Part shown: in pieces, positions 718 to 39,321 of the stretch
How the letters are laid out: the number at the start of each line of letters is the position of its first letter
Position numbering within the stretch: the first letter of the stretch is position 1
From: a virus
Strand: one strand, 5' to 3'
Length of the DNA stretch: 44,335 nt
IMG/VR virus record: IMGVR_UViG_3300044822_000103
Span: 1 to 44,335 of that record
The notes under the pieces: generated by a model
The model's input: the letters and a program-made list of their open reading frames with translations, nothing else
Told to the model about the DNA's origin: nothing
Databases searched by the model: none
Position numbers and translations under genes: made by a program

Positions 718-1029
718 TCACGGCGCAAATTTCGGGTGCAAGGTCGCGAGCTCGACCGCCAGCGTGTAGCCCGTGTGCGTCGCATCGGCCACCACGTCGG
801 CAAGCGTTGCGGCGGCTTCGGCGTCTAAGGTCTCAGTCGCATCCAACAGGTGCGGCATCGCCTGCCAATCGACATCGGCAGGCACGGGGATCGACTCATC
901 GCAAAAGACGACGGCGAGCCAGCCGACCCCGGCATCCCCGTAGGAACTCAAATCGAGAAAGTGATGCTCGCCCATCTCCTGCTGCACGATGGGCAAGTCC
1001 GCCACGGGGACCAAGTAGTAGCGTTTCAT
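718..1029 (-). CDS. Hypothetical protein after tail-tip gene
   Basis: 103 aa, start ATG at 1029, overlapping the tail-tip stop by ATGA. Soluble and acidic, beginning MKRYYLVPVADLPIVQQEMG, with no membrane span or catalytic motif that I recognise. It sits between the host-specificity protein and the lysis cassette, a place often held by small tail or lysis-timing proteins. No counterpart accompanies the second lysis cassette on the right of the window. Confidence 0.75.
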   Translation of the reverse strand: MKRYYLVPVADLPIVQQEMGEHHFLDLSSYGDAGVGWLAVVFCDESIPVPADVDWQAMPHLLDATETLDAEAAATLADVVADATHTGYTLAVELATLHPKFAP

Positions 1030-4000
1030 GGTTTGGCGTTGTGCGAGAGCGGCCCCAGGCGCGTCAGGAGGTAGAGGTGCGGGGCGGGAAGCTCGAGCTG
1101 CACTGCATTCGCGGTATCGAACACGGCTTTCAAGCACACGACTTCCAGGTGATTGCCGGCGCTTGCGAGGATGTCCAACAGATGCAGATCGGCCGCCCGC
1201 ACTTCCCGGCGGTCCGCGCGGATGAAGCGGTGATCGGGCGATACGACCAGAGTCTCGCCGTTGTGCAATTCGACACTCACCCAGGCGCTTTGTGGGCGGT
1301 GCGCGAGGCGCAGGATCGGCGCGCTCGCGGTGGCGCTCGTGTAGAGATGGTCCCCGACCCGCAAATCCCCGGCCTTCACGAGCCCCTGAGGGGTTTCGAT
1401 GAGCAGGAGTTCATGCGGACAACTCAAGCCGCCACCCCCGCCGCCGCCGGATCCCGACGTCGTGGTGGCGACCTGGAAGCCGTTCAACGGGATATTTCCT
1501 TGCGCGTAGGCAATCGCCGCGGCGGAGGCCTTGCCCGCCGCCGGATAGCACATCGCCGGCGACCCTGACCCGCCGCTCGTCACCCACGCCACCGCGAGCG
1601 TCGATCCTTCCGCGGCATACGGATAGACCTTGTAGGTGGTCCCCGTGGAGAGGCCCGTGATCGCCTTGCTGCCCGATGCAATCGAGCTCACCGTGCCATC
1701 CGCACGGTAGAGATTCATGGCGGGCCAGGTGATCGTGATCGTGGTGGTGGTCGAGGTATAGGTGAAGGGCTGGTCGGGTACGCTCAGCGGGGTGGATCCT
1801 TTGGCTGCGACTTGACCGCCCGAGGGGTCCACCGCCTTTTGGCCGATTTGCGGATTGTCGATAATGGGAATCGTCGCCGAGGGTCCGAACTCCAAGGAAT
1901 TGCACCCCGCCCCCACGTCGTGCAGGAGAATGTCAGCGTAGAGCGTCAAGCCCGAAACGGCTACCGTGCGCAGCACCGTGCCACTCTTTAAGTAGGTGAG
2001 CGTCGCGCCGTCATAGGTAATGGCGAAGACATCGGTGCTGGAATAGCTCCCGTACGACGAGATAGCCGTGCCGCTCTCGTAAATGCCTACGGTTCCGCCG
2101 TTGCAATAGATCGCATAATTGAGCGCCATGTACCCAGGCGTTGCGGGAATGGCAGTCACCAACGACCCCATTAAGAGGTCCAAGTTGTTCGTCTTGAATA
2201 CCAAGTGACAGGTCGGGAACCCGGAGATGCTGTACACATCGGAATCCCACGCAGTTGCCCCGCCCGGTGGCTTGGTGGCGCTCGCGTTCGCCACCGTGGC
2301 CGTGCCGCGCGCGATATAGAGCACCGGCGTCGCCGTGCCGTAGGGGCCGAACTTCAGGTTATTGGCGGCGGCCTGGAACGTATTGAACGAGGAATCTAAA
2401 TACAGCGTCTGGTTCGCCGCCGCCGTCTGCTGATAGATCACCGTGCCGTTCTGCAGATAGCGCACGAAGGATCCGTCATAGGTGATCGCCAAATCATCGC
2501 CCGCGGCATAAGTGCCCAACGTCGCAATCAGGGTTCCATTGTTGTAGACCACAAGCCCCGTACCAGGCAGGCATTCGAGCGCGTAGTCGAGCGTCGTGTA
2601 ACTGCTCGAAGTGGCCGGGTCATGATTGAGCGACATCATGAAGGTGCTCGAGGTGTTATCCGCCGGCTGCCAGGAGACGAATGCGCCGTTGGTATAGGCT
2701 TGGAGCGAATTGACCGTGCTGTCCCAAGCGGTCGTGTTCGTGCTTTTGAAGACATTGTTGCCGACGACCGTCACACCCGATCCCACGAGCGATACGGGCG
2801 ATGGCATTAGCTGCCCGGCGTTGTTCGATGCGAGGACGTGCGAATAGGCGGTGCAGGCGGCGAGCGATTGATACGCTCCACCGTAGACATTGAAGCTCGC
2901 GAACTTGAAATACATCGTCTGGCCGATCATGCCGGGGTCGTAGGGCACCCGGAATATCCCCGCATCGATGCGCGCGAACTGCGCGCCCGAGAGATGTGCC
3001 GCGGGGCTCGAGCCATAGAGCCCGCGCCGCAGGGTCGTCAGGTTGTAGGTACCGGTGCCGGTGAGGGTCGCGGTCTGGTACGCCATGATCTCGCCATCGA
3101 CGTAGAGGAGCGTACGGAGGTTCGTGTAATCGGCGGTGGACCCTGAGACGAGCTGCAGCGAAGTGGTCGCGGCATTGGTGAGTGCCACTGACAAGGTATC
3201 GGTCGTATCAGGATCGGGATTGCTCGGAAGGTTCGCGGTCAACGTGCCGTAGCGAGAGGCTCCATGCACCGCGCCTGCATAGATGTAGGACACGTTATCG
3301 AGCGACATGTAGACATCGCCCCCGCCCCACGATCCTGCAGCGCCTTGATCGACCGCGACCCAGATCTCGTGTCCGCCGTTCGCGCTCACGAGCGCCGCGG
3401 GAGCCGCGAAGATCAACGGCGTGCCGACCGAGGGCGGAACCACCGCATAATTCGCTGCGTACCCCTGGCTCGCCTGCCAGTTGTATACCGGGGCTGAAGC
3501 CGTCCCGACCAGCATGTCCTCGGCGGTGATGGTCAGAAGATCGTTCTCATCGTCATCGACTTCGGTGATGCGCACGAGCTTATTCGTGAGCCCTAATACC
3601 GAATCGGTGATCGAGACTAAATCCATCGGTTCCAACAGGCAGTAATCCGCGCGGATGGAAAACGTGAACGTGTTCCGGATATAGAGCTGGCGCTGCAAGA
3701 TGAGCTGCGCGACTTGTCTCGCCACACTCCCGGTCGTGATCTGGTGAAAGGTCAAGGTCGCCCCGGTACGCACCCCGTTCAAGGCGATGTCTTGGTCGTC
3801 CTTCGCCTGGGCGATGTCGGTGTTGTACGCATTCGCGCGATTCAAATATTCCAGATGCACCGTGTTGAACGTGTCCGCCAACGCGGCTCGATCGACGATC
3901 ACCGGATCAGACCCCGCACTTGCGGTGCTCGAGAGCATGAAGTCATCGTCGGTGAAGGAATAAAGCGGAGTCAGGTTTGGCGTGTAGGTGCGGCCATTGC

Positions 4001-4787
4001 CGGTGACGCTCGCATCGGCGTAGGGGACGATGTTCAACGTTCCCGCGGAAACAAAGGCGTTGGAATTGGTGATCTGCAGCGTCTCTTTGATGAAATCGAC
4101 CGCCGCCCGCTGAGTCGATTCGTACGGGCTGATAAAAAAGCCCATCGCGATGCAGTAGCTTTGATAGGTGAGAACGCCCGTTCCCTGGATGACCCCAAGA
4201 CCTGAGAAGTTCGCGCCGTGATTCGCATCCGTGCAGTAATCGGTGAGCATCGCGGACGGTTCCGCATCGTTGATGGTGCCGACGGTGTAGGGCGCGAGGC
4301 CGGTCAATTCAAAGGTGTAGTTGGGCAGCGCCGCAGAGCTCCCGAGTGCATAGTTCGGCACCCCGATATAGGCGGTGTGATCGTAGGGAACGGCTTGGCT
4401 CGGGTAATTGCCGGAGAGGTAGCTCCAGGTCGCCTGTCCGCCCGCGCCGGTGAAGAGCGTGCCGCCGATCGAGGAGAGGGTCACGAGCGCCTTGTCCTTC
4501 CAGATCTGCCCCATCGGGCCGCCCAACTGTCCTTCGATCAAGAGCCACACCATCGAGGCGGTGTAGGTGTAAGTGGTATTGGAGGATCCCCCGCCCCCGC
4601 CCTTGCCGCCGCTCTGACTCACCGTGTGTGCGGTCGCGACGAAATTGCCGTACCAGCCGAGCGTCATGGGCACGCGGTTCTGGCCGTACAGAAGCCCGAT
4701 GCAGTTGCCGTAGCTCGATTGGTTGATGTTGATCGCGTTCAAGCGGACGTCGGTCGTCGACTGGGATTTGCCGCCGCCGAGACTCAT
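1026..4787 (-). CDS. Tail-tip host-specificity protein with C-terminal Hint domain
   Basis: About 1253 aa. ATG at 4787 is chosen because it forms an ATGA overlap with the NlpC/P60 stop; the open frame runs further upstream only as antisense-quality sequence. The N-terminal ~600 residues resemble the phage tail-tip/GTA ORFG15 family (LRLNAI-type start, a region matching phage-tail_3 around YCLLEPMDLVSITDSVLG). Two related ~125-residue modules follow (about 688-817 and 847-970; both have WDS...AITYDG...YL.(N/S)GTV...L.FGP), probably carbohydrate-binding beta-sandwiches. An FN3-like segment (about 1004-1070) and a glycine linker lead to a Hint domain (1123-1253). It likely forms the distal tail and contacts the receptor. 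It is the last of a DUF2460-DUF2163-NlpC/P60-tip set. Confidence 0.88.
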   Translation of the reverse strand: MSLGGGKSQSTTDVRLNAININQSSYGNCIGLLYGQNRVPMTLGWYGNFVATAHTVSQSGGKGGGGGSSNTTYTYTASMVWLLIEGQLGGPMGQIWKDKALVTLSSIGGTLFTGAGGQATWSYLSGNYPSQAVPYDHTAYIGVPNYALGSSAALPNYTFELTGLAPYTVGTINDAEPSAMLTDYCTDANHGANFSGLGVIQGTGVLTYQSYCIAMGFFISPYESTQRAAVDFIKETLQITNSNAFVSAGTLNIVPYADASVTGNGRTYTPNLTPLYSFTDDDFMLSSTASAGSDPVIVDRAALADTFNTVHLEYLNRANAYNTDIAQAKDDQDIALNGVRTGATLTFHQITTGSVARQVAQLILQRQLYIRNTFTFSIRADYCLLEPMDLVSITDSVLGLTNKLVRITEVDDDENDLLTITAEDMLVGTASAPVYNWQASQGYAANYAVVPPSVGTPLIFAAPAALVSANGGHEIWVAVDQGAAGSWGGGDVYMSLDNVSYIYAGAVHGASRYGTLTANLPSNPDPDTTDTLSVALTNAATTSLQLVSGSTADYTNLRTLLYVDGEIMAYQTATLTGTGTYNLTTLRRGLYGSSPAAHLSGAQFARIDAGIFRVPYDPGMIGQTMYFKFASFNVYGGAYQSLAACTAYSHVLASNNAGQLMPSPVSLVGSGVTVVGNNVFKSTNTTAWDSTVNSLQAYTNGAFVSWQPADNTSSTFMMSLNHDPATSSSYTTLDYALECLPGTGLVVYNNGTLIATLGTYAAGDDLAITYDGSFVRYLQNGTVIYQQTAAANQTLYLDSSFNTFQAAANNLKFGPYGTATPVLYIARGTATVANASATKPPGGATAWDSDVYSISGFPTCHLVFKTNNLDLLMGSLVTAIPATPGYMALNYAIYCNGGTVGIYESGTAISSYGSYSSTDVFAITYDGATLTYLKSGTVLRTVAVSGLTLYADILLHDVGAGCNSLEFGPSATIPIIDNPQIGQKAVDPSGGQVAAKGSTPLSVPDQPFTYTSTTTTITITWPAMNLYRADGTVSSIASGSKAITGLSTGTTYKVYPYAAEGSTLAVAWVTSGGSGSPAMCYPAAGKASAAAIAYAQGNIPLNGFQVATTTSGSGGGGGGGLSCPHELLLIETPQGLVKAGDLRVGDHLYTSATASAPILRLAHRPQSAWVSVELHNGETLVVSPDHRFIRADRREVRAADLHLLDILASAGNHLEVVCLKAVFDTANAVQLELPAPHLYLLTRLGPLSHNAKP
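1029..1421 (-). other. Hint (intein/BIL-like) domain at C-terminus of tail-tip protein
   Basis: 131 residues following a run of glycines. Residue 1 is Cys (SCPHELLLIET). Next comes a block-A-like KAGDLRVGDHLYT, a block-B-like VVSPDHRF with the conserved His, and a terminal LYLLTRLGPLSHNAKP in which His-Asn is followed by Ala. Known Hint domains use Cys1 for the N-S acyl shift and the last Asn for cyclisation; the residue after Asn must be Cys/Ser/Thr for ligation. Ala there predicts cleavage without splicing, as in B-type bacterial intein-like domains. That outcome is inference. Confidence 0.85.
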
Positions 4788-5242
4788 ACCGCGCTCCAGT
4801 ACGAGTGGAAGCGATCTTCGAGGCTCCGCAGCTCGATCAACTCCACATTGCGTGAGGGGCGGTGGGCGTGAATGCCCATGAGCTCCCCGTGTCCGTGTGC
4901 ATCGGGGACTTGGACGATGATCACGCCGTGCGAGACGCAGCGACCGAAGTTGTACACCGCCACATCGCCCAGTTCCGGAACCTCGACCTGACGCGCGTGC
5001 TTCAAGACGCCCTGCAGGTAGATTTCCTCCGACTGGTGGAAATACCATTCGGGGGCGTAGTTGCCGGGGTCGAAATCCTGTGCGACTTTGCCAACGGCTT
5101 GAAAAACGCAGACCAGCAGCCACACGCAGTCGGTCCCGACACCCTTCACGTGCGCGTGAGGGTGATACGGAGTTCCGAGCCAGGAGAACGCTTCTGCGAC
5201 GATCGCGTTACGCAGTGCAATTCGGTTCGAATCACGGGACAT
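4784..5242 (-). CDS. NlpC/P60 family tail peptidoglycan hydrolase
   Basis: 152 aa. The NlpC/P60 cysteine peptidase core is visible: GTDCVWLL with Cys39, VSHGVIIV with His105, and IHAHR supplying the third polar residue near 125-127. In siphophages and gene transfer agents this gene sits between DUF2163 and the tip protein and acts as a tail-borne cell-wall peptidase during entry. It overlaps DUF2163 by 11 bp and the tip gene by ATGA, so translation is probably coupled. Confidence 0.93.
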   Translation of the reverse strand: MSRDSNRIALRNAIVAEAFSWLGTPYHPHAHVKGVGTDCVWLLVCVFQAVGKVAQDFDPGNYAPEWYFHQSEEIYLQGVLKHARQVEVPELGDVAVYNFGRCVSHGVIIVQVPDAHGHGELMGIHAHRPSRNVELIELRSLEDRFHSYWSAV

Positions 5243-6251
5243 AGCTGCCCCTGCCGCGTGCGCCAGAGAAGCCCGATCCGGCCCCTTGCCCGCCCTGCCC
5301 GCCCAAATCGCGCGTGTTCCCCTTCGGCGTGCCGCCGTCGTAGAGCGTTTCCGGTTGCGGCACGAACGGCGCGCCGCGGTAACGTCCGCCGGTGGTCGTC
5401 AAATTGGCGAATGCGGGTCCTACCGCCGTCGAGGTGTTCGAACAAGCCGCTTGGGTTTTGGGGCATCCGGGGAGGATGGTGAAGCTATCGCCCACCGACG
5501 GCAGTGCCGCCCACGGCTGCACGGCAGTGACCACGCCTCCCGCGAAGCTCGAGATCGCGTATTGTGAGCCGGACAGCACCCCGGAGGTGAACGTGATCAC
5601 CCCCAACGCAAAATAGCTCGCGACTTGCGTCAAGGCCGTGGAGCCCACGGTCAACGCGGTGACGTAGCCCGTAATCGTGCCGCTTTTCTGAAAGGTTGCC
5701 TTCGATAACCCGCACCCCGAATCGAACAGGGTATGCACGCAGCCCGCCTGCAGGATGTTCCGGGGCATCATCACGTTCAGCACCTGCACGGTGTCGTTCA
5801 GCGTGAGATCGACGGAGAAACGCCCCGCCTGCATGTCATCGACGATCCCGGCGAACCAGGGGACGATGCCGGGTGAGGTGTTCAACTGCGTGCCGGATGC
5901 GGGAAAGTTGAAAAAGCCCTTGGAGATGGTGACGATCCCGCCGTCAAAAGAACCGGCCCGGCAGGCGCTCAAGAATCCGGCGCCGCCGATGGTCACGGGA
6001 CCTGCCGGGTTATCGGCTTGCGGCTCGATGGTGAGATCCACCGATTGCACTTCCAAGCCCACCTTCTGGGTGAACGCCGAACGGACAATGGTGAGACCGG
6101 TGAGATAGGTATTTCCGCCGACGGTGATCGAGGTATCGGCATTGGTGAAATAGAACGTGCCGACTTTGGGGAGCGCGAATTGGTAGAATTCGAATTTCAA
6201 ATACTGCCCGCTCGCCAAAATGGCGAGGGTCGCCGCACTAGCGATTTTCAC
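5232..6251 (-). CDS. DUF2163 / BR0599-family minor tail protein
   Basis: 339 aa, GTG start at 6251 overlapping the DUF2460 stop (TAGTG). It contains the family's N-terminal beta-rich region (FYFTNADTSITVGGNTYLTG), a central CVHTLFDSGCGL and the Cys-rich C-terminal signature GCPKTQAACSN...GGRYRGAPFVPQPE. It is a distal tail component that joins the tape-measure end to the tip, equivalent to GTA ORFG13. The last ~30 residues are glycine-rich. Confidence 0.92.
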   Translation of the reverse strand: MKIASAATLAILASGQYLKFEFYQFALPKVGTFYFTNADTSITVGGNTYLTGLTIVRSAFTQKVGLEVQSVDLTIEPQADNPAGPVTIGGAGFLSACRAGSFDGGIVTISKGFFNFPASGTQLNTSPGIVPWFAGIVDDMQAGRFSVDLTLNDTVQVLNVMMPRNILQAGCVHTLFDSGCGLSKATFQKSGTITGYVTALTVGSTALTQVASYFALGVITFTSGVLSGSQYAISSFAGGVVTAVQPWAALPSVGDSFTILPGCPKTQAACSNTSTAVGPAFANLTTTGGRYRGAPFVPQPETLYDGGTPKGNTRDLGGQGGQGAGSGFSGARGRGSYVP

Positions 6252-6874
6252 TAGAGCTTGACCTGACGCAGTGAGATTTTTTTCGCTTCCCAGAAGTTCG
6301 ACATGAACTGGGTCAAGGTCAGGGCATCGTCATCGAAGCGGCAGCGATAGTAGAAAGAGCCGGACCAGGTAATCGCTGCACCCGAAGCCGGGGTGTAGCC
6401 GGTGAAGGTGACCAAGCCGGTCCCGCTGATCGAGTAGTTGGAGGCCGACACGAGCGTCCCGGCGCTGTAGATCAACGGCACGCCGTTTAAATTCTGGATG
6501 ATCTCCGCCCCTCCAGGACCCCCGGAGTTCTGATACGTCGCGGACAACTGAAATACCGACGTCGCCAACACGCCCGTGCCGGTGGCGAACTGCATCCCCG
6601 ACACGGTGTTGAAGACGGGGTCGTTATAGAGAAACGTATCCCACTTGCCGTTGCACGCCATGAAGAGGCCGAACAAGGCCTTCGCGTCACTCGGCACGAC
6701 GTAGTCGCGCAGGAGCTCGTACGCGAGCTCGAAGGTGAACACGGGATAGAGCTGATAGGCGATGCGCGATTCTTTCGCGGACAAGGCCGGTTGCACGCCC
6801 GTATTGAAGGCGACACCGCGCGTCGAATTCCAGGTGAGTCCCGGCAGGTTCGCGGGGTAGATGAGGTTACCCAT
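6251..6874 (-). CDS. DUF2460 distal tail protein
   Basis: 207 aa. It begins MGNLIYPANLPGLTWNSTRG and has the DUF2460 pattern of small beta-rich tail hub proteins (GTA ORFG12; distal-tail-like). The segment KALFGLFMACNGKWDTFLYN corresponds to the conserved family core. It overlaps the tape-measure stop by 8 bp. The position after the tape measure supports a baseplate hub or distal tail role. Confidence 0.9.
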   Translation of the reverse strand: MGNLIYPANLPGLTWNSTRGVAFNTGVQPALSAKESRIAYQLYPVFTFELAYELLRDYVVPSDAKALFGLFMACNGKWDTFLYNDPVFNTVSGMQFATGTGVLATSVFQLSATYQNSGGPGGAEIIQNLNGVPLIYSAGTLVSASNYSISGTGLVTFTGYTPASGAAITWSGSFYYRCRFDDDALTLTQFMSNFWEAKKISLRQVKL

Positions 6875-9407
6875 TCATGAACCGTCCCTGTAATTTCCTC
6901 AAGGCTGCAGAGACCGCAGAGCCGTGGTTGTTGATGGCTTTGGCAAAGCTCTGTGCGTCGATCGCGTGCACGGTGAGCTGCAACCCGCCGCCACCCCCAC
7001 CCCCACGGGACGCCATGTCGCGCACGGCGTTCGAGAGGCCTTTCGGTAACACCATTTCCTCTTCATGCAGTTGGGTCACGGGATTGATGCCGGTCGGGAT
7101 GCTGTAGCCGCCCGCGGCCGAAGCAACTGCGGCGTAGGACATGGTGTCGGCGTAAGCTAGAGCGGCCGCTGCAGGGGCCAATTCGGGGCCGACATAGGGA
7201 ATTGCAGCCGTCGAGGCAAACGCCCCTGCAGCGGCTTGAGCCGCCAACGTGCCGATGATCGCAACGCCCGACGTTTTCGAGGAGACGATCTGCATCAGGG
7301 AGGTTTCGAGATACTGCGCGGCCATGTTCGAGATCATGGTGATGATCGAATTGCCGACGTCCTGAAAGAGACCCTTGACCAAACCGGCCACCGATGTCGT
7401 GCCTTTCAGAAAGCCTTGAATGGTCGATGAGAAGCCGGAGCGCATGTCGGAGAACAAGGTGTTCCAGGTCTTCAACTGATCGGTCTCTGATTTGTTGACG
7501 ATCTTCTGCACGTCGGCCGCGTGCTTTTGCTCGAGCAGCAATTCTTGGTCTTTGAGCTTTTGCTGCTGGGCGAGGTCCTGGCCGGCGAGCTTTAATTTAT
7601 CCTCGAGCGCCTGTCGCTCGATTTGATATTTCTGATTCTCGAGGGCGATCTCGCCGGCCAATTCTTGCTGCTGAGTGATCTTGTTCGTCGCGAGCTCTTG
7701 CTCGAGCGCGGTTTTCTTGGCTTCGATCTCGCCGAGCTGCAGCGCCTCGACGGTCTTTTCGTATTCTTGTTCCTCTTTGATGCCGTCGGCATTGCCTTTG
7801 TCTTGGATCTTCTGAAGCGCGAGCTGGTGGGTTTGCGCTAAGACCAATTCCTGATCGCGGATCTTCTGCTGACCCAGCACGTCGAACTGCATGAGCTTCA
7901 GCTTCTGCTCGAGCGCGCGTTCCTCGATCGCGTATTTCTGGTTCTCGAGCTCGGCTTCGCCCGCAAGTTCCTGGGCGTGGGAGATTTTCCCCGCGGCGGC
8001 GGCTTCCGTGAGGGCTTCGCGCTTCGCGTTCAGCTCCCCTTCCGCTAGAGTTTGGACGGTTTTCTGGTATTCCTCCTCGCCCTTGATGTATTGGTCGTGG
8101 GCTTTTTTGGCGTCGGCCAGGAGGATCTTCTCGATATCCTCGCGGAGCTTCTTGTCTGCGTCGGTCGCCCCCTGGGTCTGCGCGAGTTTGGCCTGCCAGA
8201 ACGCTTGATCGGCGGCTAAGTCCTTTTGGTCCCAGTCGCCGGCGGCTTGGGCTTGTTCCTGGCGCTCTTTCTTGTACTGCTCGAGGACGTCGCCGCCCTT
8301 GCCCGGTACGTTCTCGCCGACTTTGGGGGGTGGTAAAGGCGTTTGGCTGGCGAAGAGATTGGTGATCTTTTTGAGGCCATGTTCGGCGTCATCGCTCATC
8401 TGGTCCATGGACGTCGACCAATCGCGCGCAATCGTCGTGCCGATCGACTTCAAGCGCGCCGCGGCGGTCGACATGTGGCCCTGCATCGCCTCCCCGACCG
8501 CTTCGAACAGGAGTTCGACCGTGTCGGCGAACATGCGAAAGACCATGATCAGCGCATCGACGCCGATCTCTAAGTCCGCGACCACGATCCAAAACACCGC
8601 AACGAACCCGCCGAGTACTCCTTTCAACACGGTGATCGCGTAGGGGACGATCACGGCGAACATTTCCGCCAATTGCGAGAGCACCGGCAAGAGCGCATCG
8701 CCCACGGCTTTGCCCAAGCCGTGCAGTCCCGCCATGAGACCGCCCATGGCCTTGACGTTCTCTTTGTAGTCCTCGACGTTCTCCTCACCGACGATGAGCC
8801 CCAAGTTCTCCGCCGTCTCGCCGGCCTCCGCCATCCCTTCTTTGGTGAGCTTCAAGAACGAGGCATTCGCATCCGCGGCCCGACCGAAGGCGATCTGCGC
8901 CGCTTCGTTCCGGTCGAACCCTTCGGTATAGGTGTTCACCGTCTCGATCGCGTTCCACATGATCTGCTCGCCGTTGAGCAGATGACCATTGGCATCGCGG
9001 GTGACGATGCCTAAATCATTCATCCCTTTCTCGTTCGTCTTCAGCTGCCGCGTCAATCCTCGAGAAGCCGAGGCAAAGTCATCTGCAGACCCCCCGACAT
9101 CTTCGATGGCCACGCCATAGATCGAGGCCTGCGTTGCGGAAATGCCGAAACTCCGTCCGAGATTGATCGCTTCGCGCTCGACGTCCTTGGTGACCTCGAT
9201 GACCTTCTCGAAGGCCTCGACCGCCAAGAACACTTCCATCAATTCCGTGAAGTTGTCCTTCAAAAGCGTGAACGGCGCGAGGAGCGACTCGAGCGACTCG
9301 GTCATCTCGGCAACGCCTTCCGCCACCCCTGCAGCGGCGGCTTGCATGGCAGCTAAAGCACTGCCGGCCTCGCCCGTGATCAGGACTTTGGTTTCGGTGT
9401 CAGACAC
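6867..9407 (-). CDS. Tail tape measure protein
   Basis: 846 aa, GTG start at 9407 (MSDTETKVLITGEAGS). An Ala-rich N-terminus is followed by a hydrophobic segment at about 240-300 (FAVIVPYAITVLKGVLGGFV) and long charged helices. Two tandem ~95-residue coiled-coil repeats share ELAGE-(A/I)-(E/A)LENQKY-(A/Q)IE. A second hydrophobic region precedes the glycine-rich C-terminus. It sets tail length and is ejected with DNA. It lies directly after the frameshifting chaperone genes, the canonical siphophage order. Confidence 0.93.
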   Translation of the reverse strand: MSDTETKVLITGEAGSALAAMQAAAAGVAEGVAEMTESLESLLAPFTLLKDNFTELMEVFLAVEAFEKVIEVTKDVEREAINLGRSFGISATQASIYGVAIEDVGGSADDFASASRGLTRQLKTNEKGMNDLGIVTRDANGHLLNGEQIMWNAIETVNTYTEGFDRNEAAQIAFGRAADANASFLKLTKEGMAEAGETAENLGLIVGEENVEDYKENVKAMGGLMAGLHGLGKAVGDALLPVLSQLAEMFAVIVPYAITVLKGVLGGFVAVFWIVVADLEIGVDALIMVFRMFADTVELLFEAVGEAMQGHMSTAAARLKSIGTTIARDWSTSMDQMSDDAEHGLKKITNLFASQTPLPPPKVGENVPGKGGDVLEQYKKERQEQAQAAGDWDQKDLAADQAFWQAKLAQTQGATDADKKLREDIEKILLADAKKAHDQYIKGEEEYQKTVQTLAEGELNAKREALTEAAAAGKISHAQELAGEAELENQKYAIEERALEQKLKLMQFDVLGQQKIRDQELVLAQTHQLALQKIQDKGNADGIKEEQEYEKTVEALQLGEIEAKKTALEQELATNKITQQQELAGEIALENQKYQIERQALEDKLKLAGQDLAQQQKLKDQELLLEQKHAADVQKIVNKSETDQLKTWNTLFSDMRSGFSSTIQGFLKGTTSVAGLVKGLFQDVGNSIITMISNMAAQYLETSLMQIVSSKTSGVAIIGTLAAQAAAGAFASTAAIPYVGPELAPAAAALAYADTMSYAAVASAAGGYSIPTGINPVTQLHEEEMVLPKGLSNAVRDMASRGGGGGGGLQLTVHAIDAQSFAKAINNHGSAVSAALRKLQGRFMNG

Positions 9408-15299: not shown

Positions 15300-16064
15300 T
15301 CAATCGTCGCCTGAGATGTCGCTCAGTACGGGTAATACATCGCACCGGCAATTCGGGTGCGCCGGCGGATCGCCGACATCGGGAAAATCATCATCCAAGT
15401 CGACTTCCATCCCATTGAGCGCCTCGCACTCATCGCAACATCCTTCACCGGTGATCCAACGCTTGGAAGCCACCTGGCCTGACACACGGTAGGCTTCAAG
15501 GTTGCCGCCAATATCGGCTTTAGCGGTTTCGGTTCGGGCGATCGTTTCTGCTCGAGCATCCGAGAACGCGTACATCTCGGAGAGGTTGTCGGCGAGCTCG
15601 TCATTGCTCATGCCGGTCTCGATCGCATCGGCAATATCGTCTTTCACCATGTCGCGCGTGGTATCACTGATGACCCACTCGGCGTTCGGATTCGGCACCC
15701 TCTCGCCGTCTTTCATCTTCATGCCGATCATTTCGGCGGCCCGGTCGTTCGCGTAATCGAGTGCGTACTGATTCAGCTGGTCGGTGATCGACTCATCGGC
15801 CACGAAGCCGATCTGAGCGAGAGCTTTTGCAGCGCCCTCGTTCGTGATGCGCTCGAGCAGCGCGCTCGACTCATCGGCCAGGAGCCCCAACTTGCCTTGA
15901 GCGATCTCGCCCAGGACCTCATCAATGATCGCCTGATCGTCCTTGCGCAGCGTCTTCAGGCGCTTGCCGATGGCGGTCTGCCAGCTCGAGAACTGCTTTT
16001 TCAGTAGCGATGCAAACTGGTCTCGGCTCTTGTCCGTGTAGCTGCGATCAAGGGCGCGGATCTG
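15300..16064 (-). CDS. MuF-like minor head protein, probably made as portal fusion
   Basis: The frame encodes about 254 aa from the slippery run at 16064-16072 to TGA at 15300. The C-terminal part has the MuF signature: ARTETAKADIGGNLEAYR, GEGCCDECEALNG, PPAHPNCRCDVLPV. The homologous-looking N-terminal part (RALDRSYTDKSRDQFASLL) has no ATG/GTG/TTG; the first candidate is a TTG at 15890 without a ribosome-binding site. The frame is -1 relative to the portal and joins it at AAAAAAAAC. MuF proteins sit inside the capsid near the portal, so a portal fusion would be structurally sensible. Confidence 0.85.
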   Translation of the reverse strand, partial: QIRALDRSYTDKSRDQFASLLKKQFSSWQTAIGKRLKTLRKDDQAIIDEVLGEIAQGKLGLLADESSALLERITNEGAAKALAQIGFVADESITDQLNQYALDYANDRAAEMIGMKMKDGERVPNPNAEWVISDTTRDMVKDDIADAIETGMSNDELADNLSEMYAFSDARAETIARTETAKADIGGNLEAYRVSGQVASKRWITGEGCCDECEALNGMEVDLDDDFPDVGDPPAHPNCRCDVLPVLSDISGDD

Positions 16065-17488
16065 TTTTTTTTAGTGACGGCGTTGCGCCCGCCGATGGGT
16101 GCCTTGCCGCTGCCCGCTTTTCCGGGCGGCGCATTGCCACTCGGCGCACCCTTCGGCGGCGGATTGCCCTGTGCATCCAACATCGGCGGCGGCGGCGGAT
16201 TCAGCAATTCTTGCTGTTCCGGCGTTAACGGTTCTCGACCCATGTCTTGCCGAACTTCATCCGGCGTCAACACTTTGCCGGCGAGATAGATTTGGGCCAC
16301 CTGGGCGGCAATGAGGGGATCGTTGTCCGCCTCTTTGACCCAGTCGAAACACAAATCGGGGGCTTGGAAATACCGCTGGATGACATCGGTCATCGTGTCC
16401 TTGACCCAAGCCATCAAGGGAACCAAGCCTTCGTCCTTCGCCGCATCGGCTGACGTATCAGAGGTCGCGCGATTCTGGGTCTTGATGAACGGGGTCGGGG
16501 CGATCGAGAAGGCGAAGCACACGATGCGCGCGAGCCATTCGTCGTACTCGTCCTTCAACTGCCCCGCTTTGGTCTCCAGGATCTTGCCGCCGCCGGGGAT
16601 GAACTTGGCTTTGCGTCTCTGCGCGGTGTTGCCCTCGAGCATCGCGTCGAACCAGTTCTGGATCTGCTTGATCTGATCGGGCTGCCAGGTTTCAGGCACC
16701 TGAATCAGCATGTCGGGGACGTTGCCTTCGGTGTACGCCTGCAGCTGAAAGGTCTGGCGTCTCAGAGCAATGTTCACCGTCATGATGATCTGCTCGACGG
16801 GTGAGTAGCCGAAGATCTTGTGCGTGCGCGGATTCTGCGGCGCGTAGATCAGCTCGTCCCTCGAATAATCGACCGCCGGCATACCCTTGATGATCTGCTG
16901 GTAAGCAGGATCCGGCGGGAGTGGCGTCCGTCCGCTCGAATCAATAACCCGCTTGATGGTGGATCCGTCGACCAGCTCCAAGCCATACAATCCCCCGCCG
17001 CGGTTCATGCGCGGGTACATGGTCGGGGCATCGATGACGAGTAAGTCCTCGAGCAGCATCCGGAGCCAGATGTTCCAGTTGTGTTCCTGGTCGGGCTTTT
17101 TCAAAAACTGTTGGATCGCGAGACAGCGCGCATCCGAGGTGCCCTTCGGGTCCACCGGCGTCACGGTCCAATCTTGGGCGCAGATCTGATCCTTGCGCGT
17201 CTGGATCACGAGTCTGAGGACGTCATACCCATCGGCCAACGCCCGCATCTGCGCAAAGCTCACCGCCTCCGTTGCACGGGGCGTGTACTGGATGTTGGTG
17301 TTGACGTCGAAATCAAATGCCCGACCGACCGCTTGGGTCTGCGCTTGCGGGGCCAATGGTTGACCTGGCCCGAACCAGTCGGAGGGCTGGACACCGGACA
17401 GCGTATAGCGCACGCCCTGCACCAGTCGGGCAATGACGCCCGGCTTGATCGCGGTTTGGGTCGCGTCGGATTTTAAGTTGCCGGCCAT
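16001..17488 (-). CDS. Portal protein
   Basis: 495 aa in the zero frame. Portal features: FAQMRALADGYDVLRLVIQT, then YGLELVDGSTIKRVID, DELIYAPQNPRTHKIFGYSP, and a C-terminal region with a proline-rich stretch (NPPPPPMLDAQGNPPP). It forms the dodecameric DNA gate that TerL docks on. The last 21 residues (from NRSAPLIAATRT) look out of character and lie beyond an A8 C run. At that run a -1 shift would continue into the MuF-like frame. ATG at 17488 overlaps the previous gene. Confidence 0.93.
   Translation of the reverse strand: MAGNLKSDATQTAIKPGVIARLVQGVRYTLSGVQPSDWFGPGQPLAPQAQTQAVGRAFDFDVNTNIQYTPRATEAVSFAQMRALADGYDVLRLVIQTRKDQICAQDWTVTPVDPKGTSDARCLAIQQFLKKPDQEHNWNIWLRMLLEDLLVIDAPTMYPRMNRGGGLYGLELVDGSTIKRVIDSSGRTPLPPDPAYQQIIKGMPAVDYSRDELIYAPQNPRTHKIFGYSPVEQIIMTVNIALRRQTFQLQAYTEGNVPDMLIQVPETWQPDQIKQIQNWFDAMLEGNTAQRRKAKFIPGGGKILETKAGQLKDEYDEWLARIVCFAFSIAPTPFIKTQNRATSDTSADAAKDEGLVPLMAWVKDTMTDVIQRYFQAPDLCFDWVKEADNDPLIAAQVAQIYLAGKVLTPDEVRQDMGREPLTPEQQELLNPPPPPMLDAQGNPPPKGAPSGNAPPGKAGSGKAPIGGRNAVTKKNRSAPLIAATRTRAETSLHRY
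16064..16072 (-). other. Slippery run A8C at portal/MuF junction
   Basis: The coding strand reads ACT AAA AAA AAC AGA in the portal frame. It contains the classic heptamer A-AAA-AAC. Slipping back one base gives AAA AAA CAG and enters the MuF frame, which is closed by TAA just upstream. A homopolymer sequencing error fusing two frames would look the same. Confidence 0.7.
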
Positions 17489-17875: not shown

Positions 17876-18853
17876 TCAGAAGGTCGTGGTGACGATCATG
17901 TAAGCCGCACCGCCCCCACCGCCGATACCCGCCGCGCCCGTCGAGAGCGCGGAACCACCGCCGCCGCCACCACTGCCGCGTGCGCCCGCGCCGCCCGCGC
18001 CGCCCGTGAACGTCGAGATAGCCGAGCCACCGCCCGCGCCGCCGTAGGCAAAGCCGATGGCTGAGAGCGCGGCAGCACTTGCGCCCGCGCCACCATTGCC
18101 GCCAGATCCAGCAGCGCCGGCGGCGACTGCGGTAGCCACGGCGACATAGGACGCGCTACCGCCGCCCGCTGTCGTACTGGGCGTCGCCGTGACTCCACCG
18201 CCGCTCGCGCCGCCTTGCGGACCCGCACTGAGAATGCCCGCACCACCGCCAGCCCCGGCACCTCCGTTCACGCCGCCGCCTGACCCCGGCCCGATCAGGG
18301 CTAAGGACACGTTCACGCCCGATGCCCCTGATGCGCCCGTTGCCCCGAATGCGCTCCCGCCCGCGCCTCCCGCAGTCCCCGTCGCTTGACTGCCTGCGCT
18401 CCGGGTGCTCGCACCACCACCACCGCCCGACGCCGCATTGGACACACCCGGCGCTCCACCGCCGCCGCCATAGGCGGTCAGGAGACTGCCGAACGTCGCA
18501 CTGCCGCCATTGCTGCCCGCCGCGCCCGCAGCGCCACCCGCGCCCCCGCCTGGGATTGTCACTGTGACGGAAGACGGGACGTTGGCTGCGACAAAGGTTT
18601 GATCGACCAGGACCGCAGGACCGCCACCGCCACCGCCCGAACTCGACGTACCGGATGCAGTTGTGATGCCACCACCGCCACCGCCGCCCGAGCCGTTGCC
18701 CTGCACGCGGATCAACTGCGCGCCGGTCGGTTGCGTATAGGTTCCCGACGATGGGAACGCCTGGATGTTGACCTTGAGGCCATACACGCCCAAGTCCGTG
18801 AGGCGCACCGCGTCGTTCGGATTGACAGGGGTTACACCCGCTTGCTGTCTCAT
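17876..18853 (-). CDS. Glycine-rich fiber/adhesin-like protein
   Basis: 325 aa. A ~50-residue N-terminal domain (VNPNDAVRLTDLGVYGLKVN) is followed by long glycine tracts broken by short hydrophobic strands (AVLVDQTFVAANVPSSVTVT). The motif QLIRVQGNGSGGGGGGG resembles the start of polyglycine-rich domains in phage adhesins, which pack as polyglycine-II sandwiches. It likely forms or tips a fiber. It follows the collagen-like gene in the same transcript. AAGGTGAG precedes the ATG. Confidence 0.8.
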   Translation of the reverse strand: MRQQAGVTPVNPNDAVRLTDLGVYGLKVNIQAFPSSGTYTQPTGAQLIRVQGNGSGGGGGGGITTASGTSSSGGGGGGPAVLVDQTFVAANVPSSVTVTIPGGGAGGAAGAAGSNGGSATFGSLLTAYGGGGGAPGVSNAASGGGGGASTRSAGSQATGTAGGAGGSAFGATGASGASGVNVSLALIGPGSGGGVNGGAGAGGGAGILSAGPQGGASGGGVTATPSTTAGGGSASYVAVATAVAAGAAGSGGNGGAGASAAALSAIGFAYGGAGGGSAISTFTGGAGGAGARGSGGGGGGSALSTGAAGIGGGGGAAYMIVTTTF

Positions 18854-18884: not shown

Positions 18885-20738
18885 TCATCCGATCACCACG
18901 CCGTTCATCTGATTCAAGGTGGGCGCCGTCTGAAAAATGACCGTCACCGCGTTCAACCCGTGGGTCACATCGCAATCGGGTTCGACTCCGGTTGCGGCGT
19001 ACCAAGCATCGAACGAGTAAAAGAGTGAATTGATGTTGTGGGTCAGCGTGAACGTCGTCGTCACCCCGTCCCCGAAGATGAAGGGATACTTCGCCGTGAG
19101 CGCCACGCCGTTCGCGTAGACCGCACCCGCGACGTTGACCGTGCCCGCGCCTTTATCCCCGCCCGTGGGCGAACCGACTTGCACGCCGGTGCCCGAGAAC
19201 TGCGCGCCACCCGCGCTGACCAGGAGCGCCATGCTGCCTGCGCCCGCGCTGTTGGCTGCCACGATGGCGGCATAGAGCGGGTTGGAACTGGTGTTGCTCG
19301 CTTTGAGCGCAATCCCGTTCGAGGTCGCGTCGATCGCGTCCCCGGCTGAATTGATCATGGAGAGCGACGTGCCGTTTATGACGGCGGGCAAATCCGCCGT
19401 GACCAGGGCGCGAAGGGCTGAGACGGCCGTACCGCCGCTGACGGCCGTCGCCAAAACTTGATTCGCGGCGCCTGAAGGTGCTGGACCGGCAGGGCCAGTG
19501 GCGCCTGTCGCACCCGCTGCACCGTTTGTCCCGGCTGCACCTGTGGCACCGGCCGCTCCCGTGGCGCCTGTTGCGCCCGTAGCGCCAGTCGGTATCCCAA
19601 AATTGAATGTCGCCGCCGAGCTGGTGCCTGAGTTGCCTACCGTGGGTGACGCCCCGGCGGCGAGAGGGGTTGCCGTGCCGGCGGCGATGGTGGCCGCGGC
19701 GCCCGCAGGCCCCGTTGCGCCTGTAGAGCCGGTGGCTCCCGCCGCACCATTTGTGCCGTTCGTGCCGGCCGCTCCCGTGGCGCCTGTTGCGCCCGTAGCG
19801 CCAGTCGGTATACCGAAATTGAAGACGGCCGCCGCGGACGTGCCCGAGTTGCCGACGGTCGGCGTGGATCCTGTCGGAAGTGCGCTGGCGGTACCGGCGG
19901 CGATGGTCGCTGCCGCTCCAGCTGCGCCCGTGGCTCCAGCCGCACCCGCGGTCCCGGTTGTCCCGGTCGGTCCTTGCGGACCTGTGGGACCGGTGAGGCC
20001 AATGGGTCCTTGAGGCCCTGTGGCGCCCGCAGCGCCGTTCGTACCCGCGGCGCCGGTGAGGCCGGTAGGTCCTGTCGGACCTGTCGCGCCTGTAGCACCT
20101 GTCGGACCTGCTGGCCCCGTCAATCCGATCGGGCCCTGAGGTCCTGTGGCTCCAGTAGCGCCCGTGGCGCCAGTCAAACCGATGGGCCCGGTGGCTCCAG
20201 CGGGTCCGGTTGCGCCGGTCAGGCCCGTTGGCCCTTGGGGTCCCGCAGCGCCCGTGAGTCCAATAGCACCTTGCGGGCCCGTCGCCCCGGTCAAGCCCGT
20301 GGGTCCCGTCGGTCCCGCCGAACCGGTGAGCCCCGTCGCACCGATCGGCCCCGCAGGTCCTATCGAGCCGGTGAGCCCCGTGGGTCCGGTAGGCCCTTGC
20401 GCGCCGGTCAATCCAATAGCGCCAGAAGTTCCCGTCGGACCGGTCGCACCCGTAGGACCTATCGGTCCCTGCGCCCCTTGCGCTCCGGTGTTGCCCGACA
20501 ATCCCGTGGGACCGATGGGCCCTTGAGGTCCGGTCGCACCCGTGGCACCTTGAGCGCCTGAAGGCCCTTGAGGACCGATCGCGCCCACCCCTGCCGGCCC
20601 TTGAAGTCCGGTCGGGCCTTCAGGACCTTGCGGCCCCTCGAGCCCCGATTGCACGGTGATGGCCACCGCGGGCGGTTGGGTCACAATGACGTTCACCGGC
20701 GGCGGTAGCGCCACCGTGACCGTCACCTCATCGATCAC
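18885..20738 (-). CDS. Collagen-like fiber protein
   Basis: 617 aa. The N-terminus ([19 protein letters not shown]) leads into well over one hundred Gly-X-Y triplets ([13 protein letters not shown] type), which form a collagen triple helix. The triplets are interrupted by repeated ~45-residue modules with TVGNSGTS(A/S)[10 protein letters not shown]. The C-terminal ~150 residues are non-collagenous ([20 protein letters not shown]) and probably the trimeric head. The protein is a virion fiber; whether on head or tail is open because it lies between TerL and portal. Confidence 0.9.
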
Positions 20739-21118
20739 GGCTTGGTGACTTCGCGAAACACCGAAATGACACCCTGGAGCGGGCTCCAGATGATGCCGGT
20801 CTGCGTGTTCTTGTCCTCCATATCCCAGATGTACTGGGAGAGCGGATCCAAGAGCGTGGGTCCGCAGGTCACCAGCGCGGTCAAACTCGCCGCCATGCTC
20901 ATCGCGGTGACACCGCTCGTGGGTACGCTCGAGGCAAAGCTGAAAACGCCCGCCGGCGAGATATCGCCGGGGAGCTTTCGCATCTGTGCCGAGAGCGCAC
21001 TGTATGTCAGGTCGTAGGGTGAGCCATCGGCATTCGTGAACGTCAACGACAAGAGCAGGTCCGCGCCCTGGCGCATGGCGAAGTCGAACTTCGCCCCGAC
21101 ATTCGAAATGCGCGTCAT
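20735..21118 (-). CDS. Hypothetical protein preceding collagen-like fiber
   Basis: 127 aa. Beta-rich, with [20 protein letters not shown] followed by [14 protein letters not shown], a layout seen in small phage proteins next to receptor-binding or head-fiber genes (reminiscent of BppU-type N-terminal domains). It overlaps the collagen-like gene by ATGA and TerL by ATGG-type coupling, so it is probably the fiber's attachment partner. Assignment by context only. Confidence 0.7.
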
Positions 21119-22383
21119 GGTGTCTCTTTGGCTTTCAACGCCGCAAGTTCATCCGTGGCGAAATCCACGAACCCGAAGCCTGAACGGCGAATCAGGGGCG
21201 CGAGTGCATAGCGCACCGCGTCCCAGATGTGATTGTGTTTATCGACGATGTCGGTCAGGACATCTCCGGTCAGCCGATCGGTTTTGAAGCTGTAGAGCTT
21301 CGCTTCCTCGATCGCATGGGCGCAGCGCGTGTGGATGACCACGCACTCAAACTGGCGGATGAACGCGATGCCATCCTCCACACTGCCCGGCCACTTCTCG
21401 GCTGCCGTTATGCGGGGATAGCCGTGGCGCTGCAGATAGCTGATCGTCTCCGGGCGGGAGTTGTCCCCACGGATCACATGGAGCTTTGCCCCGGCGATCT
21501 GGTCAAAGAGCTGCGGCACCGTATCGGTATCGCGGCCGATCGCCCACGCTTCCTGCTCAATGTATAGACAACGTCCATACACCCAGCACTTCACAAGCGT
21601 CGTGGGGTCCTGGCTGAAGCCCCAGTCCGCTCCAAAATAAGGTCCGTCCCAGTTACCCGGTACGAAATCCTCGATCCGGTACTTGCCCTTGAAGATCTGC
21701 GCCGCTGAGTTCGTGCGGAACTTGCCCTCCCAGACGTGCTGGTAGGCTTCCGGATCCACCCGGGCGAGATAGTCTTTCAGCCGGATCAATCGGTCCGAGA
21801 GCCACGGGTTATCGCGCCAGTTGGTCTCGATGATCCGGCTGTTCGGTACCGGATCGATCAGAAAGCGTTTTGACGTCGGGTCCGTGGCCAAGTCCGGGTT
21901 GAACCCGCACCAGATCTCCGACCCCGCCTTTCGAATCGTCGGTTCGACGATTTGCCAGCTGTTCTCGGTAACAGACTCGCCCTCCTCGATCCAGAGGATG
22001 TCGATGCCTTCGGTCGATTTGAACTTCCGCGGCTCGGTTTTGATGCCGGCGAAGAAGAATTCACTGCCGTTACTGGCAGTAATCGAGCGCTTGCCGATGT
22101 GAAAGTACGCATCGAGCCCCAGGCCCTCGATCTGGGCGCGCAAGGTCTGATGCACTGACTCATCGATTGAGGTCTGATACTCACGGGCACAGGCAATGCG
22201 CAGCTTTCGCTTGGCGGCCAGGAGTACTGCTGTTCGGGCAAAGCCCCAGGACTTCAGTCCGCCGCGGCCCCCGTGCATGACTTTGTAGTCAGACGGGATG
22301 TACTGACCTTGGGAATCAAAGAATAGATCACGAACCTTTGCTGCCAGAACTGGGGGTGCCAGAACCGGGTCCGCCATTGCCAA
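21115..22383 (-). CDS. terL: Terminase large subunit
   Basis: 422 aa. N-terminal ATPase: Walker A-like [10 protein letters not shown] (37-46), Walker [11 protein letters not shown] (127-136). C-terminal RNase H-like nuclease: [11 protein letters not shown] with its Asp, [10 protein letters not shown], and [13 protein letters not shown] carrying the last acidic residue. Matches the PBSX/XtmB-type large terminases. It packages DNA through the portal. It overlaps the TerS gene by 56 bp. Confidence 0.95.
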
Positions 22384-37824: not shown

Positions 37825-37892
37825 GGCGAGAGTGTGCCTTGGCAAGGCCGATTCTGGCGAGCGGTGGGCGCGTTCCAGCCGAGATCGATGGT

Positions 37893-37904
37893 ACCCCTTG
37901 GGGT
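37893..37904. repeat. Palindrome ACCCCTTGGGGT before xis
   Basis: 12-bp perfect palindrome in the 145-bp gap between the small-gene array and the excisionase. It could be a terminator element or a regulator site for xis/int. No other gene is convincing in 37825-37969. Confidence 0.45.
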
Positions 37905-37969
37905 GGGGAAGGCCCCCCGGGCTTATCCTCGCGCGGCATGGGGGCGGATGCGCCCTATGGGGTTTGCCG

Positions 37970-38260
37970 ATGAAATGGGTGACGATCAAGAAGGCCGCGG
38001 AGCTCTCCGGGTATACCGAGAAGGCGATCGAGGCGAAACGGGCGGACGGGGTGTGGCTCGAGGGCATTGTCTGGATCAAAGCCCCCGATGGCCGTATTCT
38101 CATTTCAACAGAGGGGATAGACCAATGGGCCGAGGGACGGGTGTGCGCGCCGCAAGCGCCTCATCGATTGCAATCAGCTTCGAGTACAAGGGCGTCCGCT
38201 GCCGCGAAAAGCTCAAGCTCCCGCCAAACCCCGCCAACCTCCGGTACGCCGCCGGATTGA
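37970..38260 (+). CDS. Excisionase (AlpA/Xis-like)
   Basis: 96 aa from ATG 37970. The first ~55 residues match phage excisionase/HTH_17-type DNA-binding: VTIKKAAELSGYTEKAIEAK, then GVWLEGIVWIKAPDGRILIS. It directs excision together with Int. The last ~44 residues overlap the integrase start in another frame and look non-conserved. Confidence 0.82.
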   Translation: MKWVTIKKAAELSGYTEKAIEAKRADGVWLEGIVWIKAPDGRILISTEGIDQWAEGRVCAPQAPHRLQSASSTRASAAAKSSSSRQTPPTSGTPPD

Positions 38261-39321
38261 AAGCGACCATCGAGCACGAGATCGCGGTGGGCAGCTTCGA
38301 CTACGCCAAGCATTTCCCGAAGAGCCGGCGCGCGAAAGTGCTCGCGAAAGTCCCGGCAACCGTCATCACGGTGGGCGAGCTGCTGACTGATTGGCTGCGC
38401 GACACCCGCGCAGAATTGGAGCCTGAGACTTACGCGGACTACGCCGAGTACGTTGAGAACACCTGGCGCCCGCTATTGGGCAAGCGCTTGCTTTCGGATC
38501 TGACCGCGGCCTGGGTCTACGAGTGGATCGGCAAGCAGAAGAGGAGCAAGAAGCGGATCTTGAATCTTCTGACCCCGCTTCGCCAAGCGGCCAAGTACGC
38601 GGTTAAGCCGCGCAAGTTCTTGACCGAGGATCCGATCGGGAAGCTCACGGTGAAGCGGCCGGCGGGTATTGACGAGAGCGACGTGCTGATCGATCCGTTC
38701 ACGGCGGAGGAGATCGAGGCGATTCTGCCGCACTTGGAGCCCGAGCTCGCCGCCATGTGTCAGTTCTGGGTGTGGACCGGACTTCGGGTGGGGGAGCTGA
38801 TCGCGCTCAAGTGGTCGGACATCGATTTCGAGCGCAACATCGCGCGCATCACCAAAGCCGCCCGCGGCAACCGGCGCAAGGCTCCGAAAACGAAAGCCGG
38901 GGTGCGCGAAGTGAAACTCCTCCCGCCCGCATTAGAAGCGCTCCAACGGGCGAAGCCCTTCACCCGCCTCCTGCATGCGGAGATCTTCCAAGATCCCGGC
39001 ACGCGCCCGATGGGGAACAACCATGCGCCAAAACGGGCGATTGCTCCGTGGGCGAACGATAAGCAGATTCGCGTGCGCTGGCAGGCGGCGTTGAAAGCCG
39101 CCGGCGTGCGCTACCGCTTCCCGCGCCAGCTGCGTCACACCTATGCGTCGTGGATGCTGAAGTTCCGCGAAGACCCCGCGTGGATCTCCGCGCAGATGGG
39201 ACACAGGAACGTCTCGGTCACGCTGACGACGTACGCCAAGTACATCCCGGCGATGAACCCGAACGCGGGGATGGGCGCGTACGCGGCGATCATGGCGGCG
39301 AAGAACAAGGGACACGATTAG
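38125..39321 (+). CDS. int: Tyrosine site-specific integrase
   Basis: 398 aa. N-terminal DUF3596/arm-binding region (SIAISFEYKGVRCREKLKLP, FDYAKHFPKS), a core-binding SAM-like domain, and the catalytic domain: TGLRVGELIALKW (first Arg about 219), RQLRHTYASWML (second Arg, with His of the usual HxxR replaced by Arg), GHRNVSVTLTTYAKY (His and nucleophile Tyr near 369). It overlaps xis and reads directly into the tmRNA-like attP, so this is the integrase for that site. Confidence 0.94.
   Translation: MGRGTGVRAASASSIAISFEYKGVRCREKLKLPPNPANLRYAAGLKATIEHEIAVGSFDYAKHFPKSRRAKVLAKVPATVITVGELLTDWLRDTRAELEPETYADYAEYVENTWRPLLGKRLLSDLTAAWVYEWIGKQKRSKKRILNLLTPLRQAAKYAVKPRKFLTEDPIGKLTVKRPAGIDESDVLIDPFTAEEIEAILPHLEPELAAMCQFWVWTGLRVGELIALKWSDIDFERNIARITKAARGNRRKAPKTKAGVREVKLLPPALEALQRAKPFTRLLHAEIFQDPGTRPMGNNHAPKRAIAPWANDKQIRVRWQAALKAAGVRYRFPRQLRHTYASWMLKFREDPAWISAQMGHRNVSVTLTTYAKYIPAMNPNAGMGAYAAIMAAKNKGHD

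Follow-up and report, generated by a model that had tools for sequence, protein, structure and literature searches.

The final 131 residues of a phage tail-tip protein form a Hint (Hedgehog/intein) domain that reaches the stop codon, and the reading that we narrowly favour is that this domain acts as an autoprocessing module resembling a type A BIL, fixed at the C-terminus of the tail tip and releasing itself from it. The protein is encoded in the window, by which we mean the entire 44,335-nucleotide stretch of viral DNA analysed here, where it lies at the end of a run of tail genes:

1026..4787, reverse strand: tail-tip protein gene, 1253 aa, ending in the Hint domain; Phage-tail_3, Rcc01698_C; GTA-megatron/lambda-J-like
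718..1028, reverse strand: next gene, 103 aa, function unknown; its ATG overlaps the tail-tip stop codon
4784..9407, reverse strand: block of distal tail genes upstream of the tail-tip gene
4784-5242, reverse strand: minor tail/NlpC-P60-like gene
5232-6251, reverse strand: gp84/BR0599 hub gene
6251-6874, reverse strand: DUF2460 gene
6867-9407, reverse strand: tape measure gene

The identity of the 1253-residue product as a tail tip, which an earlier note made from the sequence had proposed, follows from its profile matches (Phage-tail_3, 3e-32; Rcc01698_C, 6e-16; the tail protein family phrog_1101, 8e-89; and a partial, below-cut-off match to the GTA megatron, 2e-36), together with its place in the gene order, after the tape measure and further distal tail genes. 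Elsewhere in the window, an integrase family gene (37834-39321; phrog_1, 1e-52) suggests that the phage is probably temperate. A collagen-like tail fibre gene (18885-20738) and a tail fibre-type gene (17876-18853) sit between the terminase (21115-22383) and portal (16001-17488) genes, an unusual location for tail fibre genes.

Within the tail-tip protein, the Hint domain comprises residues 1123-1253 of 1253, with the last proline at 1029..1031 and the stop codon at 1026-1028. Re-reading of the sequence returned exactly the span (1029-1421), glycine linker, Cys1, SPDHRF and terminal SHNAKP that the earlier note had described. Block positions and roles were assigned after PMC4031507:

1029..1421, reverse strand: Hint domain, 131 aa, reaching the stop codon (profile, structure and sequence matches)
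1458..1784, reverse strand: beta-rich segment preceding the linker; ends TTTSGSGGGG, compare PTSGSGSGGGG in other phages
1422..1457, reverse strand: Gly-rich linker SGSGGGGGGGLS, directly before Cys1
1419..1421, reverse strand: Cys1 (Cys1123), predicted nucleophile of the N-S acyl shift; invariant in the related set
1230..1241, reverse strand: block B Ser-Pro-Asp-His, with Ser1183 at B:7 and His1186 at B:10 (alignment to gp41-1)
1077..1079, reverse strand: block F:13-like His1237 (PHLYLL), placed by alignment to a PT-HINT domain
1038..1043, reverse strand: block G (G:6-G:7) His1249-Asn1250, predicted site of Asn cyclisation
1029..1037, reverse strand: Ala-Lys-Pro after Asn, the C-terminal end (+1 = Ala1251); (x)KP recurs in the related set

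The motifs run in the order CPHELLLIETPQG...SPDHRF...PHLYLL...SHNAKP-stop and supply the catalytic set (Cys1, the B:7 Ser, the B:10 His, the F:13 His and the terminal His-Asn); F:4 carries no Asp.

Profile, sequence and structure searches agree, above chance, that this region is an intein-like Hint domain. Two Pfam families match the domain without reaching their curated cut-offs, Intein_splicing at E=2.9e-6 and Hint_2 at E=6.3e-5, and a phmmer search aligns SPDHRF with block B (SEEHLF) of the gp41-1 intein (E=0.027), the best match by sequence to a solved structure. The pretoxin HINT domain of a Methylocystis RHS protein is 29% identical to the window domain over 93% of the query (E=5e-4). 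With the alignment available, AlphaFold gave a low-confidence model (pLDDT 56) of the window domain; when this model was used in Foldseek, the best 39 PDB matches were all inteins, BILs or Hedgehog autoprocessing domains (top match E=4e-5, prob 1.00), the third being the BIL 2lwy (E=8e-5, prob 1.00).

Phage tail proteins that end in a Hint domain recur; the window protein is no one-off. The same arrangement occurs in Stenotrophomonas phage DLP_6 and in Xanthomonas phages PhiXhv-15, LucasX and XacN1, and further scans yielded many more carriers, some of them at loci in genomes of Stenotrophomonas and Vulcaniibacterium. First relatives were fished with composite phage-Hint queries that served as bait only, each match then being read from its own DNA. 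The carriers comprise J-like tips, a second, apparently podovirus-type class of tail protein (L095, L111, L115) and jumbo-phage proteins encoded near tail fibre genes. Across these distal tail proteins of sipho-, podo- and jumbo-type phages and prophages, the shared end consists of a Gly-rich linker, Cys1, the Hint domain, HN, 3-11 residues and a stop. Six module matches in a single bacterial genome (G418; L137, L139-L143) lie on different contigs, possibly representing several related prophages, and most end in HN(QR/GA)HKP. Phage terminase matches at E=0.07 proved to be ordinary inteins and were set aside. No Pfam, PHROGs or NCBIfam model was found for the members of the set that were tested, and a literature search, with most subscription papers outside its reach, returned no description of a C-terminal Hint domain in tail proteins.

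Presence of the domain is patchy. L002, the nearest homologue that the tail protein has, is 75% identical over the first 654 residues, has no Hint domain and ends ...REYKR, and two (L067, L093) of 66 sampled tail-tip homologues, some of them truncated, carry one. A scan with the adaptor domain that often precedes the linker in other phages, whose query was taken from Hint-bearing proteins and did not itself include the Hint, returned 46 loci, of which 35 carry the Hint at the C-terminus, two are truncated, and nine are complete but Hint-less and stop after a Gly-rich tail often ending in Pro (L155, L167, L182, L184-L189; for example, GGQIP or GMPVP). Because the Hint-less proteins finish at this same Gly-rich stretch, tail proteins of the kind can do without a Hint domain. 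The adaptor query had no matches among INPHARED phages; the corresponding segment of the window protein (1458..1784) resembles the adaptor weakly (hhalign prob 15). Patchiness of this kind, together with the intein-like sequence, might be expected of a degraded selfish mini-intein that inserted by chance near the 3' ends of tail genes. We hold this to be very improbable, given that the domain has neither an endonuclease domain nor a +1 nucleophile, that it occupies a constant, extreme C-terminal place, usually after a Gly-rich linker, in different and unrelated host proteins, and that it is under purifying selection with no single conserved insertion site.

One pair of loci bears on how the domain spreads. 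The DNA of L118 and L123 is near-identical, with two substitutions, over the stretch that begins at the Gly linker and ends at the stop codon, and is unrelated upstream, where one encodes a 939-aa tail fibre and the other a lipoprotein-like ORF; the linker can therefore serve as a swap point. The breakpoint at the linker is clean (L123 5794-6441 against L118 3625-6441), and the short ORF carries a lipoprotein-like signal (MKRIFLLALAAGLVGCAQS...). It is scarcely probable that the architecture is, at root, a mosaic cassette in which recombination at the Gly-coding stretch exchanges tail proteins ahead of a fixed Hint end: this pair is the single clear case, and exchange accounts for the spread of the domain but not for its invariant catalytic residues, while being compatible with self-removal.

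The tail-terminal set comprises about 49 non-redundant copies, one duplicate and two mis-set starts having been allowed for. Every one of them has Cys1 and His-Asn, at pairwise identities that are often only 20-40%. The copies were partly gathered by their HN ending, such that the invariance of HN among adaptor-derived copies is partly due to selection of the sample, but HN is also invariant in copies found via other conserved stretches. The +1 residue is Leu, Ala, Ile, Asn, Pro or another, with Ser or Thr in five copies and Cys in none. Given two invariant motifs, Cys1 and HN, and a +1 position that Cys never occupies, the chemistries of both junctions appear, from sequence, to be under selection. 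Comparison of 11 informative close pairs of relatives gave dN/dS values of about 0.08-0.35, which shows purifying selection in the relatives; close relatives of the window copy itself were looked for without success. None was found in INPHARED (E<0.01), viral contigs or genome contigs, nor in 398 genomes of one phylum in a search run without a positive control, and a search of viral contigs at the DNA level for AGDxRVGDHL gave one match already in the set and otherwise unrelated or truncated frames.

The structure of the set is predicted with greater confidence than that of the window domain. AlphaFold (AF2) returned a model with a pLDDT of 94.4, for which the 50 PDB matches listed consist entirely of inteins, a BIL and Hedgehog domains, with TM values reaching 0.76 (BIL 2lwy, E=6e-6). 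An HMM of the set matched 6rpq (8e-4), then the gp41-1 and DnaB inteins, along with a few unrelated repeat proteins.

A Gly-rich linker precedes Cys1 in most members of the set, and the 3-11 residues after Asn include Lys-Pro in about 35 of the 49 copies. Overlap with the next gene was rejected as the source of this dipeptide, as most members do not overlap and codons vary; Lys-Pro is conserved as protein. The idea that readthrough or a frameshift adds the product of the next gene as a hidden C-extein was likewise rejected, there being no consistent arrangement among relatives. Conservation of Lys-Pro is hard to explain if the peptide after Asn is discarded, and would make sense if the tail were attached by ligation, had to be there before cleavage, or gave protection. 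By comparison, every copy of the set has Thr or Ala in place of the block-B His, which only the window copy keeps. Both observations lend some weight to the view that the domain is a non-catalytic Hint fold retained as a structural or adhesin tip, its catalytic residues being relics, as does the situation in PhiXhv-15, where a degenerate copy adjoins an intact-looking one: the gene right after the Hint-bearing gene (L004 5384-5803) encodes a stand-alone Hint-like protein that has neither Cys1 nor His-Asn. We regard this view as unlikely, because structure alone needs neither a nucleophile nor a cyclising Asn, and Cys1 and His-Asn are nonetheless invariant at such low identities. Several inteins that lack the block-B His still splice (PMC7664689); the relatives may activate the N-terminal junction only weakly or compensate for the lost His, and their behaviour is hence not simply transferable to the window copy.

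Where the window domain falls among known classes can be read from its motifs. It has the features of the Hint superfamily, namely the fold, a block A nucleophile (Cys1123) and the block B Thr/Ser-x-x-His (Ser1183..His1186). As a class 1 intein it would be expected to have Cys, Ser or Thr at +1 and a conserved site with exteins on both sides; it instead has Ala1251 followed by nothing beyond the AKP tail, and L002 is Hint-less with a different C-terminus. Class 3 inteins have no Cys1 or Ser1 and use a block-F Cys (WCT), and were excluded by the presence of Cys1. Type B BILs and the Hedgehog Hog domain, which have no block G His-Asn, were excluded by the His-Asn of the window, and pretoxin HINT domains, in which a toxin domain follows the Hint, by the stop after AKP (Pfam PT-HINT, E=0.19). 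A terminal His-Asn with no +1 nucleophile, which defines type A BILs (PMC4031507), is found in the window as SHN-Ala, and the link to known members of that group is a match in fold, to 2lwy (E=8e-5). The window domain also shares the architecture of the tail-terminal set (C-terminal position, Gly-rich TSGSGGGG linker, Cys1, HN and a short KP tail in the form HN-x-KP), although it retains His1186. Its sequence similarity to the set is remote: the family HMM does not detect it, HMMER comparison is not significant, and hhalign aligns 116 columns, including HN..KP, with prob 63 and E=7e-5. For this reason, we describe it as a divergent Hint domain at the same position and not as a proven family member.

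Invariant Cys1 and His-Asn, a missing +1 nucleophile, a Gly-rich linker, purifying selection in the relatives and the existence of Hint-less counterparts together argue for self-removal by type-A-BIL-like chemistry; for catalysis, the order of steps and the biological role we infer the following scheme. After folding, Cys1123, aided by Ser1183 and His1186, would attack the Ser1122-Cys1123 bond, leaving the Gly-rich linker with a thioester at its end. Asn1250, aided by His1249, would cyclise and release Ala-Lys-Pro. Most of the thioester would then be hydrolysed, although some might react with the Ala amine just released, so that AKP became joined to the Gly linker; the mature tail tip would be left without the 14-kDa domain, ending in a flexible linker. 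A likely use would be maturation, with the domain capping the receptor-facing end or helping it to assemble before being removed. The earlier note had taken the Ala after Asn to predict cleavage without ligation. In line with this, a +1 nucleophile is absent, but type A BILs that lack such a nucleophile, though they mostly cleave, can also join their flanks via the freed alpha-amine (PMC4031507), so that cleavage without ligation is likely, by analogy, rather than certain. The three-residue C-flank of the window would leave ligation nearly undetectable.

The same thioester could have another fate. In a Hedgehog- or type-B-like scheme, the Cys1 thioester alone matters and is taken by an external nucleophile, either on another virion protein or on the host surface (a lipid, a sugar or an amine), so that the tail tip becomes covalently attached through its Gly end. 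Cys1 is invariant and in most members follows a Gly-rich linker, no +1 nucleophile is there to capture the thioester, and the domain lies at the receptor-facing end. All of this speaks for such a scheme; we nevertheless consider it distinctly unlikely, since Hedgehog and type B BIL domains have no terminal His-Asn, which here is invariant, and no substrate-recognition region follows the Hint. Transfer of a reactive acyl thioester at the Gly linker to an amine or hydroxyl of a virion protein or the host surface is, as a specific proposal, very unlikely; if true, the phage would form a covalent bond through its tail tip while assembling or adsorbing, a Hedgehog-like chemistry in a phage tail.

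Returning to self-removal, the shared ending of tail proteins in many unrelated phages suggests an overlooked self-processing step in tail maturation. If the domain is active, such proteins are predicted to be shorter in virions than their genes encode, and the domains would constitute natural C-terminal self-cleaving or ligating tags. A parallel is provided by the C-terminal intramolecular chaperones of tail fibres and tailspikes, such as the K1F tailspike, which are removed autoproteolytically from the receptor-binding protein (PMC10579305). These too are C-terminal domains that autoproteolysis removes, but they have another fold, cleave after Ser and bear no relation to Hint; a Hint-based counterpart would bring protein-splicing chemistry to tail maturation. 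Among Hint domains, type A BILs (Clostridium thermocellum BIL, PDB 2lwy) share with the window domain the fold, Cys1, a terminal His-Asn with no +1 nucleophile and a location at the variable end of a non-conserved protein; the window Hint differs in its extreme C-terminal position (three-residue flank), its Gly-rich linker and its phage tail protein host, the BILs described in the literature consulted being from bacterial proteins. Class 1 mini-inteins (gp41-1, DnaB) have blocks A, B (Ser..His), F and G in common with it, gp41-1 being the best PDB match by sequence, whereas the window copy has Ala in place of Cys/Ser/Thr at +1, no conserved insertion site and practically no C-extein. The pretoxin HINT of polymorphic toxins is likewise intein-like, lies close to the C-terminus of a large protein and ends in HN, but, unlike the window domain, is followed by a toxin domain. 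The Hedgehog Hog domain, finally, is also a C-terminal fold that autoprocesses through a Cys thioester, yet it lacks His-Asn and has a sterol-recognition region, and the window domain is the reverse in both respects.
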